Below, piece by piece: positions 10,360-41,347 of a stretch of 64,000 nucleotides of DNA. The notes beneath the pieces were generated by a model. That model was not told where the DNA came from. It saw nothing but the letters and a program-made list of their open reading frames with translations, and made no database searches. The translations under genes and the position numbers were made by a program. This DNA is from Lentilactobacillus curieae (GTDB lineage: Bacteria > Bacillota > Bacilli > Lactobacillales > Lactobacillaceae): NCBI RefSeq assembly GCF_000785105.2, contig NZ_CP018906.1:930001-994000 (forward strand), in the 5' to 3' direction. Position 1 is the first letter of the stretch; each line of letters begins with the position of its first letter.

Positions 10360-10521
10360 TTATCTCCGGTTCACATAGCGGTAAATTAGAAACAGGACAA
10401 CGGCAACTAAAATTGCCCAGCCAATGAGTGGCTGTTCTCTAAAAATCAGGTGGAAGAAAAATATCCGGTGAATTCCATGAAGTCTTGGCATTCTACGCAT
10501 TAATGTTATAAATGGGTTCAT
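10360..10521 (-). CDS. Small single-span membrane protein (53 aa)
   Basis: ATG 10521 is preceded by TAGGAG at 6 bases. The peptide starts MNPFITLMRRMPRLHGIHR, then has one hydrophobic helix (about residues 33-47) and a basic end YRYVNRR. Its second half (HLIFREQPLIGWAILVAVV) resembles the C-terminus of the downstream 177-residue protein (HLIVWWKPIIGFAVFAALV), suggesting related membrane anchors. Divergent from cls, sharing its promoter region. No function can be assigned. Confidence 0.65.
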   Translation of the reverse strand: MNPFITLMRRMPRLHGIHRIFFFHLIFREQPLIGWAILVAVVLFLIYRYVNRR

Positions 10522-10583
10522 TTTTATCTCCTATAACGAGTATACTGACAGCATACAAATATTTTAACTTTTGGGGTATTACG

Positions 10584-12044
10584 ATGGATATTGATTGGTC
10601 ATTAATTTTTCAGATTATTGTGGTGGTCAACGCCGCATTAGCTATTTTAACAGTATTCCGCGAAAAGCGGGATATTGCAGCGATTTGGGCTTGGCTATTA
10701 GTGCTGGTGTTTATACCAGTTGTTGGATTTATTGCGTACGCCTTTATCGGCCGAAAACTACCTAAGAACCGGTTATTCAAATTGCATTCACACGTTCAGA
10801 TGCAACTGGATGAACGACTTGAAGAACAACGCAGGCAACTTGGTAGTGAGCAAAAAACGGCGTCTGATGTTATTTCTAAACGTGCCATAAGTGCCGTTAA
10901 CATGTTTAGCAAAACCAGTTCGTCATTCCTGGCTCGACAAAATAAGGTCAAAATTTTTACTGATGGCAGATCTCTGTTTCACCGAGTGATTGAAGATATC
11001 GAAGGTGCTAGAAAAAGTATTCATATTGAATTTTATACCTTCTATAATGACAAACTTGGTAACGAAATTCTAGACCTGTTGGTTAAAAAAGCTCAGGAAG
11101 GTGTCGAAGTTCGTGTCATTTACGATTCTTGGGGTTCAATGGGAACAACTAGGAAATTTTTCAAACCACTAAATGATGCTGGTGGTCACGCTTACCCATT
11201 CTTAAACACTAGGTCTGTTATTTTGGACTTCCGTCTTAACTTTCGTGACCATAGAAAGATTATCGTGGTCGATGGGATGATTGGCTATACCGGTGGGTTT
11301 AACATCGGTGATCAGTACCTTGGGAGAAAAAAGAAATTTGGCAATTGGCGTGATACTCATATGAGAATCATTGGCTCCGGAGTTTTCGGACTGCAAGCCA
11401 GATTTATTTTGGATTGGAATGCCACTAGTCCTACATCACTCATTAATGAGGACAAAGTTGATCCAAAGTACTTCCCAGTTACAACGACTAAGGGCTCAGT
11501 TAACATGCAGATTGTTTCTAGTGGACCAGATTCTGACCTGCAACAAATTAAAATGGGATATATCAAGCTAATTACCCTTGCAAGGGATTACTGTTACATT
11601 CAATCGCCATATTTGATACCTGATGATAGTGTCCTGGATGCGTTGAGGATTGCTGCTTCATCAGGAGTTGACGTCCGTATCATGGTTCCATCAATGCCTG
11701 ACCACCCATTTGTGTACCGAGCAACGCAATATTATGCCCGTCAGTTAGCTGAGGAGGGCATTAAAGTCTATTACTATGACAACGGCTTTATGCACGCTAA
11801 GACAATGGTTATCGACGATAGCATGGCTTCTGTTGGGTCGGCAAACATGGATTATCGGAGTTTCAAACTTAACTTTGAAATCAATTCGTTCATTTATGAC
11901 GAGAAGGTCGCAACTGAATTAAAAAACATTTTTGTAAATGATATGGATAGAAGTACTTTACAGACTCCAGAAATGTTTAAAAAGCAGTCATCATGGCTTA
12001 AATTCAAGCAGACATTTTCCAGATTATTATCACCAATTTTATAG
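10584..12044 (+). CDS. cls: Cardiolipin synthase
   Basis: Phospholipase D superfamily enzyme that condenses two phosphatidylglycerols to cardiolipin and glycerol at the membrane. Two N-terminal helices (about 5-25 and 35-58) precede two HKD motifs: HRKIIVVDG (about residue 222) and HAKTMVIDD (about 403), the latter followed by GSANMDYRSF. From ATG 10584 (MDIDWSLIF) the length is 486 residues, normal for bacterial Cls; the longer ORF extends across the divergent small gene and is not supported. The SD is weak (GGGG). Confidence 0.95.
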   Translation: MDIDWSLIFQIIVVVNAALAILTVFREKRDIAAIWAWLLVLVFIPVVGFIAYAFIGRKLPKNRLFKLHSHVQMQLDERLEEQRRQLGSEQKTASDVISKRAISAVNMFSKTSSSFLARQNKVKIFTDGRSLFHRVIEDIEGARKSIHIEFYTFYNDKLGNEILDLLVKKAQEGVEVRVIYDSWGSMGTTRKFFKPLNDAGGHAYPFLNTRSVILDFRLNFRDHRKIIVVDGMIGYTGGFNIGDQYLGRKKKFGNWRDTHMRIIGSGVFGLQARFILDWNATSPTSLINEDKVDPKYFPVTTTKGSVNMQIVSSGPDSDLQQIKMGYIKLITLARDYCYIQSPYLIPDDSVLDALRIAASSGVDVRIMVPSMPDHPFVYRATQYYARQLAEEGIKVYYYDNGFMHAKTMVIDDSMASVGSANMDYRSFKLNFEINSFIYDEKVATELKNIFVNDMDRSTLQTPEMFKKQSSWLKFKQTFSRLLSPIL

Positions 12045-12083: not shown

Positions 12084-12255
12084 AACGGTGAAAGGTGAAT
12101 GACTAATCACCTGTTTGACAGACGAAGGATATAGCGACTTTGTGTATTACCAAATCAACGTATTTGGATCCTCGTAGTCTGCCGGATTAAACAGAAGAAC
12201 ATGATTTATTTAATAACGACTCAACAGAGTCACTGATTGGTCAAACCTTTCATTT

Positions 12256-12424
12256 GTGCCACATGTATCACTTGTATCATGCACCACTTGTACAATGTAT
12301 CATGAGCACCAGGGTTTACAGTACCATATGTACAATTTGTTTTAAGTACCAAAGCACCATGAACCACAAGTAACATTTGTACGATGCACCATGAGTACTG
12401 AGCACCAATGCACCATTGTAGCAA
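12256..12424. repeat. Degenerate 8-bp tandem array (about 20 units)
   Basis: Units of the form G[TC]A[CT][CA]A (GTACCA, GCACCA, GTATCA, GTACAA) start at 12256, 12265, 12274, 12281, 12290, 12297, 12306, 12321, 12330, 12346, 12354, 12361, 12370, 12379, 12386, 12395, 12402, 12410 and 12418, with weaker units near 12314 and 12339. Spacing is 7, 8 or 9, often alternating 9 and 7, mean 8.1 over the array. The 64-codon minus-strand ORF across it is low-complexity with no SD. Confidence 0.75.
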
Positions 12425-12439
12425 GAATCATTTTCCAGA

Positions 12440-12470
12440 GTTCCTCGTCGTGAGACGAGGAACTTTTTTT
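12440..12470 (+). terminator. Intrinsic terminator after the repeat array
   Basis: GTTCCTCGTC-GTGA-GACGAGGAAC followed by seven T: a perfect 10-bp stem with a GTGA tetraloop on the plus strand. It ends either the cls transcript or the candidate noncoding RNA. Confidence 0.93.
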
Positions 12471-12501
12471 GTTGGAATCAGGAAATTATTTGCTCAAAGG
12501 G

Positions 12502-12530
12502 TTGATTTATTTGCCGAATAATATTAATAT
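12502..12530 (+). promoter_or_regulatory. Promoter of the leader-peptide / BacA-like unit
   Basis: TTGATT (12502-12507), 17 bases, TAATAT (12525-12530). The transcript would start near 12537, 11 bases before the AAGGAG SD of the leader peptide. Confidence 0.7.
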
Positions 12531-12562
12531 TATTCTCAACATATTCTAAGGAGTTTTTAATC

Positions 12563-12631
12563 ATGATAGCAGCCATGACAACTCAATTGAATATCAGCAA
12601 TCCAGAGTTTTGGTTTTTTTCAGAATGGTGA
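12563..12631 (+). CDS. Aromatic-rich leader peptide (22 aa)
   Basis: ATG 12563 follows AAGGAG (12548-12553) by 9 bases. The 22 residues end with F-W-F-F-S-E-W and stop, placing Trp codons at 12611 and 12626 and Phe codons between and before them. It has no membrane or secretion character. Its position between a good promoter and a hairpin/terminator series, ahead of an aromatic-pathway-like gene, is that of an attenuation leader peptide. Confidence 0.65.
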   Translation: MIAAMTTQLNISNPEFWFFSEW

Positions 12632-12637
12632 TCTGAA

Positions 12638-12755
12638 CGAACCAGGAAACTTTGTTGTGAAATGGTCCGTACAGATTGTAACCATGATTGTGCGGGCACT
12701 CTCCTATAAAATGAGAACCCTCGCATTCCAGGAACTTTTGCGAGGGTTTTATTTT
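12638..12755 (+). promoter_or_regulatory. Proposed transcription attenuator
   Basis: Five short segments pair as alternatives: A CGAACCA (12638-12644), B TGGTCCGTACA (12663-12673), C TGTGCGGG (12689-12696), D CCCTCGCA (12718-12725), E TGCGAGGG (12739-12746). A:B, C:D versus B:C, D:E are mutually exclusive; D:E is the terminator. A ribosome stalled at the first Trp or Phe codons leaves A free (A:B, C:D, read-through); one reaching the stop codon covers A (B:C, D:E, termination). Confidence 0.55.
12716..12755 (+). terminator. Terminator hairpin of the attenuator
   Basis: AACCCTCGCA pairs with TGCGAGGGTT, followed by the T-rich run TTATTTTT. It lies 122 bases before the start of the BacA-like gene on the same strand, so it must be passed for that gene to be expressed from the upstream promoter. 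Confidence 0.85.
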
Positions 12756-12876
12756 TGGACTACATAATTTGAGTTGGTTGCTAGAATATGGGGGCGTTTG
12801 TTACAGGGGTCAATTATTTGGTGATGAGTTGAACTGAGGGGCAATTCGCCAGGTGAGTAAGTAGGGAGCGATGCAG

Positions 12877-13446
12877 ATGAAGTTACATACATTAGGACCG
12901 GAAACGACTGATAGTTATAAGGCCGCTATGTATTTGCGGGAGATGTACTTGGATTTAGAGGATGCGGAGTTGGTGCTTCATGACTCTTTTGACGATATTT
13001 ATCGTAAACTGGATGACGAACAGGGAGATTTGTTTTTAGTTCCGGTGGCTTATCGAAGTGCGCAATCTAATGGTAACTGGGCGGATAATAATTTAAAATA
13101 TTGGGATACATTGAAGATTATGGACGTTTTTAAGCTACCAATTATGCCTTTAGTTTTGGTTAGAAATCCAGATGGCAAGGATGGTGAGGCAGTCCTACAT
13201 CCATCGACTAAGGAATTGATAAAGGAATATAGTCTTAATCAGGGGCGCAAGTTGCATTTGGAATTTGTGGATAGTAAGGCTGAGGCACTAAGAAAATTTG
13301 AATCAGATAAGTATGAATTTTCAATTGTGACTAAGGATGTTTATCAAAGCAACTGTGCTGACCGACAAGATGAAGTTTTGGCTGAATACGAGCCGAATAT
13401 GGTTTGGTGTTTATATCGAATCGGAATTCAGCAAAAAGCTGTATAG
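12877..13446 (+). CDS. Prephenate dehydratase/decarboxylase-like protein (BacA-like)
   Basis: 189 residues. The start MKLHTLGPETTDSYKAA, then LHDSFDD, FLVPVAY, LHPSTKELIKEY and MVWCLYRIG follow the order of blocks in the BacA-type prephenate decarboxylase branch of the prephenate-dehydratase fold (LGP-G-T-S, HD-F, VP-AY, HPS). The Thr-Arg-Phe motif of true prephenate dehydratase and an ACT domain are absent. ATG 12877 is 8 bases after GGGAG; ATG 12871 is only 2 bases away. No other bacilysin-like genes adjoin it. Activity on prephenate is an inference. Confidence 0.6.
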   Translation: MKLHTLGPETTDSYKAAMYLREMYLDLEDAELVLHDSFDDIYRKLDDEQGDLFLVPVAYRSAQSNGNWADNNLKYWDTLKIMDVFKLPIMPLVLVRNPDGKDGEAVLHPSTKELIKEYSLNQGRKLHLEFVDSKAEALRKFESDKYEFSIVTKDVYQSNCADRQDEVLAEYEPNMVWCLYRIGIQQKAV

Positions 13447-13481
13447 AAAAGGGACGCGAATTTCGCGTCCCTTTTCTATAC
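13441..13481. terminator. Perfect 41-bp bidirectional terminator
   Basis: Two 20-base arms (beginning GTATAGAAAAGGGACG and ending CGTCCCTTTTCTATAC) pair without mismatch around one central base. The left arm contains the stop codon of the BacA-like gene and the right arm abuts the queT stop, so both convergent genes end inside it. Confidence 0.93.
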
Positions 13482-14002
13482 TATTTGCTTAAGTCAACGG
13501 ACATGTTAACAAAGTACAAGATCACCGCACCGATTCCCATAGTGACAAACTCGCCAATTCCGGTAGTTAAGTATGAACTCCAGAAGGTAGGCCAAAATGC
13601 GCTACTACCAAAGAATGCGATTTCAAAGGCAATGATGAACATGTAAAAAGTTCCGATTAATACTGATATGACCAGTTTTAAAGGCAAACTGCTCATTTTC
13701 TTAGTTACAAAGTGGATCGTAACTAATGTGATAAATGTTTCGAAAGTTCCGAAAATCATATCGACCGGCCCCAAAGAAGACATCATGTTAGAGATAAAGC
13801 ATCCTAAGGTGATGGCAACGATGTACCGCTTGTTGAAGGGAACTAAGTTGTTAAGCCCTTCGGCGAAACGAAATTGGATGGGGCCAAAACTAAAGGCTGC
13901 AAAGACCGTCGTGGTTAACACGATATAGAGTGCAGCGACAACGGCAGCCTTTACGATGTCGATCAGGCTATCGATGCCGAAAAAATTGATCTTAGAATTC
14001 AT
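13481..14002 (-). CDS. queT: QueT-family ECF transporter S component
   Basis: 173 residues, about five or six transmembrane helices. The family signature FGPIQFRFAEGLNNLVPF (about residues 38-55) identifies the QueT/COG4708 group, substrate-binding S components of energy-coupling-factor transporters thought to import a queuosine precursor. The shared ECF module (EcfA, EcfA', EcfT) would be encoded elsewhere. ATG 14002 follows AAGGAAGG. I looked for preQ1-I and preQ1-II (COG4708) riboswitches in the short leader and found neither. Confidence 0.85.
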   Translation of the reverse strand: MNSKINFFGIDSLIDIVKAAVVAALYIVLTTTVFAAFSFGPIQFRFAEGLNNLVPFNKRYIVAITLGCFISNMMSSLGPVDMIFGTFETFITLVTIHFVTKKMSSLPLKLVISVLIGTFYMFIIAFEIAFFGSSAFWPTFWSSYLTTGIGEFVTMGIGAVILYFVNMSVDLSK

Positions 14003-41124: not shown

Positions 41125-41347
41125 GAATGAAAAAGCGCCCGACCTAGATTGGCCCGACGCAAATAAACATTGTCAGCCAATCGTTGAGTTTTAGCACTAT
41201 ACAGCGTAGTTAATAATTAACAGCTACGTTAGTTCAAGCCTTATTTTGACTTGAACAGCTGACTCATTGGCGTTTTTCGACGTTTCTGAGCAGTAGCATT
41301 TTCTGTATAGGAGCCTCACCTAACAGCCGTATTAAGTTTTCCATTCG
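41125..41347 (-). ncRNA. M-box (ykoK) Mg2+ riboswitch
   Basis: On the minus strand GTTAGGTGAGGCTCCTATAC, GAAACGTCGAAAAACGCCAA, the TCAGC and CATAAGG-like blocks and ACTACGCTGTATAGTGCTAA match the conserved core of the M-box in order (41320 down to 41170). A terminator follows: GCGTCGGGCC and GGTCGGGCGC with one mismatch, then TTTTT (41125-41160). M-boxes terminate transcription when Mg2+ is high. The next reading frame is broken. Confidence 0.88.

Follow-up and report, generated by a model that had tools for sequence, protein, structure and literature searches.

What controls the small gene at 12877-13446 of the window, the 64,000-nucleotide stretch of the Lentilactobacillus curieae genome analysed here (contig NZ_CP018906.1, positions 930,001 to 994,000), is a question raised by the short ORF and the hairpins that precede it. 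A sequence-only reading of this DNA had proposed a promoter, a leader peptide ending in aromatic codons and an attenuator of five segments, A to E, before a BacA-like gene. The Shine-Dalgarno sequence, the 22-codon ORF and the alternately pairing segments are all present, as is the D:E terminator, at 12714-12756, with a U-rich tail. The five segments and their pairings stand but their count does not, as a sixth, designated segment 0 and formed by the Phe and Trp codons themselves, had been overlooked. The features of the locus, with what each rests on, are as follows.

12437-12473, + strand: terminator upstream of the leader unit (13-pair stem at 12437-12466, then a T run)
12502-12533, + strand: probable promoter, weak (TTGATT .. 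TAATAT or TATTAT; consensus)
12548-12553, + strand: Shine-Dalgarno sequence AAGGAG of the leader ORF (sequence; kept in 20 aligned leaders)
12563-12631, + strand: leader peptide ORF, ATG at 12563, 22 codons, MIAAMTTQLNISNPEFWFFSEW* (translation; homologous leaders)
12603-12616, + strand: segment 0, the aromatic (Phe/Trp) codons, pairing with 12639-12654 (fold; family covariation)
12629-12644, + strand: segment 1, the earlier A (CGAACCA, 12638-12644) extended to the stop codon (pairs with segment 2)
12663-12678, + strand: segment 2, the earlier B (TGGTCCGTACA, 12663-12673) (folding, covariation)
12683-12697, + strand: segment 3, the earlier C (TGTGCGGG, 12689-12696) (folding, covariation)
12714-12725, + strand: segment 4, the earlier D (CCCTCGCA, 12718-12725), 5' arm of the terminator (folding; terminator covariation in the family)
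12739-12756, + strand: segment 5, the earlier E (TGCGAGGG, 12739-12746), 3' arm of the terminator and U-rich tail (folding, covariation)
12877-13446, + strand: putatively regulated gene, small prephenate-dehydratase-like (PDT-like) protein, start at 12871 in the ORF list (weak Pfam PDT match, predicted fold)
13441-13481, both strands: bidirectional terminator-like hairpin at the gene end (19-pair stem)

The upstream terminator separates the leader unit from a phospholipase-D-family gene (10512-12044) in which PLD domains were found. CACCA/GTACAA-like repeats occupy 12230-12424, before this terminator, where G009, another genome of the genus, has a different repetitive stretch. Promoter-like sequences are present in the equivalent position in G009 and G023, in favour of the promoter proposed earlier, but the sequence is weak and a pattern scan lists no + strand promoter at 12502-12533. 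The intrinsic terminator at 12714-12756 (stem-loop of -19.0 kcal/mol) is absent from the pattern scan because its loop is 13 nt and the scan has a loop limit of 8. Seven of the eight positions of the C:D helix are paired, segment 1 of the family includes the sequence TGATCTG at the stop codon (12629-12635), and the leader RNA, in a fold that includes the terminator, is more stable than 199 of 200 shuffles (z -3.6). The probable start codon of the downstream gene is ATG 12877 rather than 12871, as the sequence GGGAG (12864-12868) is then better spaced and both homologues in the genus start there. With the bidirectional hairpin closing the gene, the unit looks monocistronic. A QueT-family transporter gene (13481-14002, - strand) adjoins it convergently and, elsewhere in the window, there is an M-box magnesium riboswitch (41169-41334, - strand).

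The leader is most probably a ribosome-mediated transcription attenuator that senses the supply of charged Phe and Trp tRNAs, with starvation resulting in read-through. The elements listed above, their relatives, the conserved pairing and the switch predicted for the window are results of computation; the stalling, the kinetics and the signal in vivo are inferred. A ribosome would translate the 22-codon peptide while RNA polymerase makes the leader RNA, and a stall at Phe16-Trp17-Phe18-Phe19 would cover segment 0 and free segment 1. Segments 1:2 and 3:4 would then pair, delaying the 4:5 terminator, and the PDT-like gene would be transcribed. A ribosome that reaches Trp22 or the stop codon would cover segment 1, so that 2:3 pairs, segment 4 is left free, the 4:5 terminator forms and transcription ends. 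Folding was done on the window transcript ending immediately ahead of segment 5, with an assumed footprint that reaches 13 nt past the A-site, and with the A-site moved over codons 10-23. A-site positions from codon 11 to codon 20 allow stems 1:2 and 3:4; at codon 21 the fold is mixed; and at codon 10, Trp22 or the stop, or with no ribosome, 2:3 forms and 3:4 is nearly gone. This agrees with the original proposal that an aromatic stall leaves A:B and C:D formed and that a ribosome at the stop codon gives B:C and D:E. For a stall at Trp17 read-through is predicted, as proposed, whereas a stall at Trp22 should instead favour termination. Without a ribosome the window RNA folds into 0:1 and 2:3, and termination would therefore be its default.

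The leader in the window belongs, on sequence grounds, to a family of RNA switches that are translated and occur in lactic acid bacteria. A search with the leader DNA against 24 genomes of the genus gave matches at E<=1 in all 24, many by chance, and reading the matches left 20 places with a leader ORF, the window among them; one further match (L053) had no leader and was discarded. Eighteen of the 20, in 18 genomes, precede an aminotransferase gene, 15 with CRYYFWFF near the end of the peptide and three with ..FWFFRND.. in a shorter version; of the remaining two, L035 has an EIIC-like gene downstream and the window leader the PDT-like gene. The genome of the window has a second leader copy, before an aminotransferase gene (G000:C1:752227-752374), and so gives two matches. 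Two covariance models were used: R1, with the window included, and, because R1 contained the window, R2, built from the 18 aminotransferase leaders only. The window-free R2 recovers the window with 65.9 bits (E 2e-10) and, in a search of 12 sources, found it together with eight more, the weakest being L131 (E 0.28), a second leader with a PDT-like gene downstream. R1 matches 115 of 397 genomes of the family at E<=0.01, 31 of 395 of the order (18 of those 31 in the family) and two of 398 of the class, the window's own and one weak (E 0.008); these large-scale searches use stricter filters, so that weak matches are lost. The arrangement, regarded as unusual when the locus was first read, is no lone oddity and is widespread across Lactobacillales.

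Averaged over the 20 genus leaders, the predicted folds shift in the same direction as in the window. Before segment 5 is made, 3:4 drops below half between the Trp stall and the stop in nine of the 20, including the window; the simple folding model switches little in 11, and termination is the default without a ribosome in five. Once segment 5 is included, 19 of the 20 leaders favour the terminator at equilibrium whichever of the four modelled ribosome states is imposed, and the switch, if it works, must therefore be kinetic, a race during transcription. The exception, L035, may be owed to alignment columns. When the measure is how far segment 4 is engaged by upstream pairing of whatever kind, the window is not set apart from shuffles (69/300 as good).

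The wider set comprises 152 leader places, all 139 from the family search, with the window, and 13 from the order search that lie outside the family; secondary matches (18-24 bits) in fetched loci and repeat fetches were dropped. An alignment, A3, was made from 44 of these, stronger matches chosen by score. In A3, pairing is kept at 98.1% in hairpins 0:1 and 2:3; both sides have changed in 6 of their 21 pairs (3/500 shuffles as high) and in 34 cells, against a shuffle mean of 10.0 (0/500 as high). For the antiterminator, helices 1:2 and 3:4, the paired fraction is 92.4%, and both-side changes occur in 4 of 20 pairs (3/500 shuffles) and 9 cells (0/500), but their covariation score is not above that of shuffles (156/500 as high), possibly as each segment is constrained by two partners. 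RNAalifold, applied to 20 sequences, gave both-side changes in 11 of 37 pairs, seven of the 11 in the terminator. The six segments pair as a chain, with covariation clear for the terminator-side hairpins and modest for the antiterminator; the compensatory changes that the sequence-only reading had suggested looking for in homologues are therefore there for 0:1, 2:3 and the terminator and less convincing for the antiterminator. A separate hairpin in which the Shine-Dalgarno sequence would be sequestered by the Q-L-N codons of the leader ORF is 83% paired; it scores lower for covariation than its own copy shifted by one column, and is not established.

The genes downstream provide an independent test, as the covariance models cover the leader only and are blind to what follows. 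Clustering the first downstream ORFs of the 152 places by blastp gave PLP aminotransferases (78), TrpX-type ABC substrate-binding proteins (24), transketolases (15), DAHP synthases (12), shikimate dehydrogenases (AroE; 12), EIIC-like proteins (5), D-2-hydroxyacid dehydrogenases (2) and PDT-like proteins (2, one of them in the window), with one unclustered ORF (L216) and one contig end without a gene (L135). Leaving aside the contig end, 143 of 151 places precede an aminotransferase, TrpX-type, transketolase, DAHP synthase, AroE or PDT-like gene, with all 78 aminotransferases taken to be aromatic, an assignment made from context, as the family models say only PLP-dependent aminotransferase. Outside the family, 12 of the 13 order places precede an aromatic-family gene. 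Searched with Pfam and NCBIfam, nine representatives that cover the eight clusters, one or two per cluster, matched class I/II aminotransferase, transketolase, DAHP synthase, shikimate dehydrogenase, PTS_EIIC_2 and D-2-hydroxyacid dehydrogenase families; the ABC representative is TrpX-type with 298.6 bits, under the cut-off of 390, and the PDT-like ORF of L131 (127 aa) had no Pfam or NCBIfam family match. The short ORFs picked by script have no aromatic run at L192, L195 and L197, all in the ABC cluster, and none was found at L216. Members of the family mostly lie before genes for the synthesis or import of Phe, Tyr or Trp and probably switch them on at shortage. On two contigs, a pair of leaders lies ~1.3 kb apart, each with a TrpX-type gene downstream (L123 and L198 in G323; L158 and L186 in G288). 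Four weaker matches before transketolase or aminotransferase genes (L104, L106, L119, L120) have an extra GTGTTTGCATC-type hairpin near the leader stop, a variant architecture.

The peptides themselves retain the aromatic run. After a Q-x-N-like motif, present in 97 of 139 distinct leaders, 27% of the residues are F, 19% Y and 6% W (n=1092). The conservation of aromatic codons anticipated by the sequence-only reading is therefore borne out, although partly ascertained, as the search model itself rewards that stretch. In TnaC, the nascent peptide responds to aromatic amino acids in free form, or to their products, and Q-L-N could be an arrest element of a leader that works in this way, in which case expression could follow abundance. 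Exact QLN occurs in 77 of the 139 distinct leaders and in 71 of these lies at a distance of 8-12 residues from the peptide end, with a Leu codon that varies synonymously (TTG 45, CTG 23, TTA 5, CTT 3, CTC 1), and some targets, the aminotransferase and hydroxyacid dehydrogenase, are possibly catabolic. We nevertheless consider such sensing unlikely, as biosynthesis and uptake genes (DAHP synthase, AroE, transketolase, TrpX) are frequent targets, a ribosome held at the stop codon of the window leader is predicted to favour termination, exact QLN is missing in 62 of the 139 and its conservation is subject to the same ascertainment.

Could the window copy be a decayed, non-functional paralogue of the aminotransferase leader? 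It scores lowest of the 20 aligned leaders (104 bits with R1; 65.9 with R2, compared with 93.8 for L035), and there is no leader before the PDT-like gene at the same locus in G009 and G023, the sole other members of the genus with that gene. Its ORF, Shine-Dalgarno sequence, pairings and terminator are, however, intact, and none of the other 19 is predicted to switch as cleanly (9.3 versus 0.2 pairs for 3:4), making decay very unlikely. G009 and G023 share the promoter region and the neighbours of the window gene, and either gain of the leader in the window's lineage or its loss in G009 and G023 would account for the difference. Plasmid DNA gave no match to 12440-13500, and phage DNA a single one, of 40 bases, to 12500-12870.

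T-boxes and TRAP are the usual devices in Firmicutes, and a T-box reads uncharged tRNA itself and has no leader ORF. No Rfam 15 family exceeds its gathering threshold in the window and none is found at E<=1 in seven related loci; this search, also proposed earlier, places the leader family outside Rfam 15 at the thresholds tested. Even though trpX of Streptococcus suis, the same kind of target gene as in the family, is under T-box control in the available part of PMC9382623, we reject a T-box or TRAP-type element as scarcely credible here, given this Rfam result, the failure of one T-box sequence pattern to match the + strand of 12401-12900 and just four G/U-AG triplets in 12548-12720, with no array.

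A ribosome-mediated attenuator that responds to charged tRNA supply, the reading that we prefer, is of a known kind. Amino-acid leader attenuation is textbook material for Proteobacteria, and the trp and pheA leaders of Enterobacteria also have a translated leader, regulatory codons near its end, mutually exclusive hairpins, an intrinsic terminator and the same switch parity as the Lactobacillales family. They differ in that the latter has two more pairing segments, no Rfam match, a different phylum and copies that precede several separate transcription units. Panina and colleagues reportedly analysed aromatic regulation in low-GC Gram-positives in 2003. Ribosome-mediated attenuation has been mutation-tested in a Firmicute with Rli60, the ilv-leu leader of Listeria, which, in the part of the report available, differs in having branched-chain codons, a 13-residue peptide and one operon (PMC5864092). 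Histidine leader peptides are described in Bacilli (PMC2965389) and in some groups of Firmicutes (PMC9413887); like the family here they are amino-acid leaders where T-boxes or repressors might be expected but, in the passages available, they concern histidine only, with aromatic leaders unmentioned. A 2013 survey of Rfam motifs suggested, in its accessible part, that amino-acid leader attenuators arose in gamma-proteobacteria with few transfers (PMC3766115). We found no description of an aromatic leader family in Lactobacillales in the open-licence literature, subscription papers being outside the search. Attenuation appears to recur here, in many Lactobacillales, ahead of several steps of aromatic supply where T-boxes would be expected, which predicts how genes of aromatic metabolism are controlled in food bacteria.

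The leader also points to a function for the PDT-like gene. The window protein does not reach the Pfam cut-off for PDT (21.1 bits versus 25.2) and has no significant sequence match in the PDB (best E 0.93). Its structure was predicted from three sequences, and the best of five models (pLDDT 82.5 to 40.2) was used for Foldseek, in which the nine best matches are prephenate dehydratases (best E 1.3e-8, TM 0.53) and the 497 matches at E<=0.001 include many periplasmic-binding-type, two-lobed folds. Prephenate-dehydratase-like therefore fits better than the BacA-like label given at first, and the protein likely acts as a prephenate dehydratase or at a close step. A contig scan identified only two relatives; the homologues in G009 and G023 are 74-76% identical. 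Among the 24 genomes of the genus, 15 have a PDT over cut-off and three a relative of the window protein, with none having both. Among 301 genomes of the family, the numbers are 31 and 92, again with none in both (hypergeometric P 5.8e-6, with genomes treated as independent though related, the two 301-genome draws assumed to be the same set and the overlap compared by eye).

Counting against the proposed control, 23 of 32 loci with PDT-like homologues, among which two are second copies, lack an aromatic short ORF with a Shine-Dalgarno sequence upstream, and one of the nine with such an ORF (L002) is probably due to chance. In its favour, in five of the six genomes of genus g3 the PDT-like gene is preceded by a separate Phe-coded leader ending QFNFSFFR*, with a terminator-like hairpin and T run; R2 does not match three such leaders (L012-L014) at E<=1. 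In G703, a PDT-like relative is the first gene of an operon that also contains DAHP-synthase-, AroB- and AroA-like ORFs, named from sequence alone, and that follows a leader ending ..QLNNYYFSFFR*. A wider reading, possible but doubtful, is that an ancestral, re-used leader family forms a pathway-wide aromatic regulon in Lactobacillales, controlled by tRNA charging without a protein regulator, in which the Q-L-N nascent chain is a co-sensor and each copy combines codon supply with peptide arrest.

Natural variants in codons, stop positions and targets are available for probing the six-segment switch. Measured from GATCTG, the leader stop of L047 and L057 falls ~25 nt downstream of where most of the genus has it, with the RNA segments unmoved, a natural test of the position of the stop codon.
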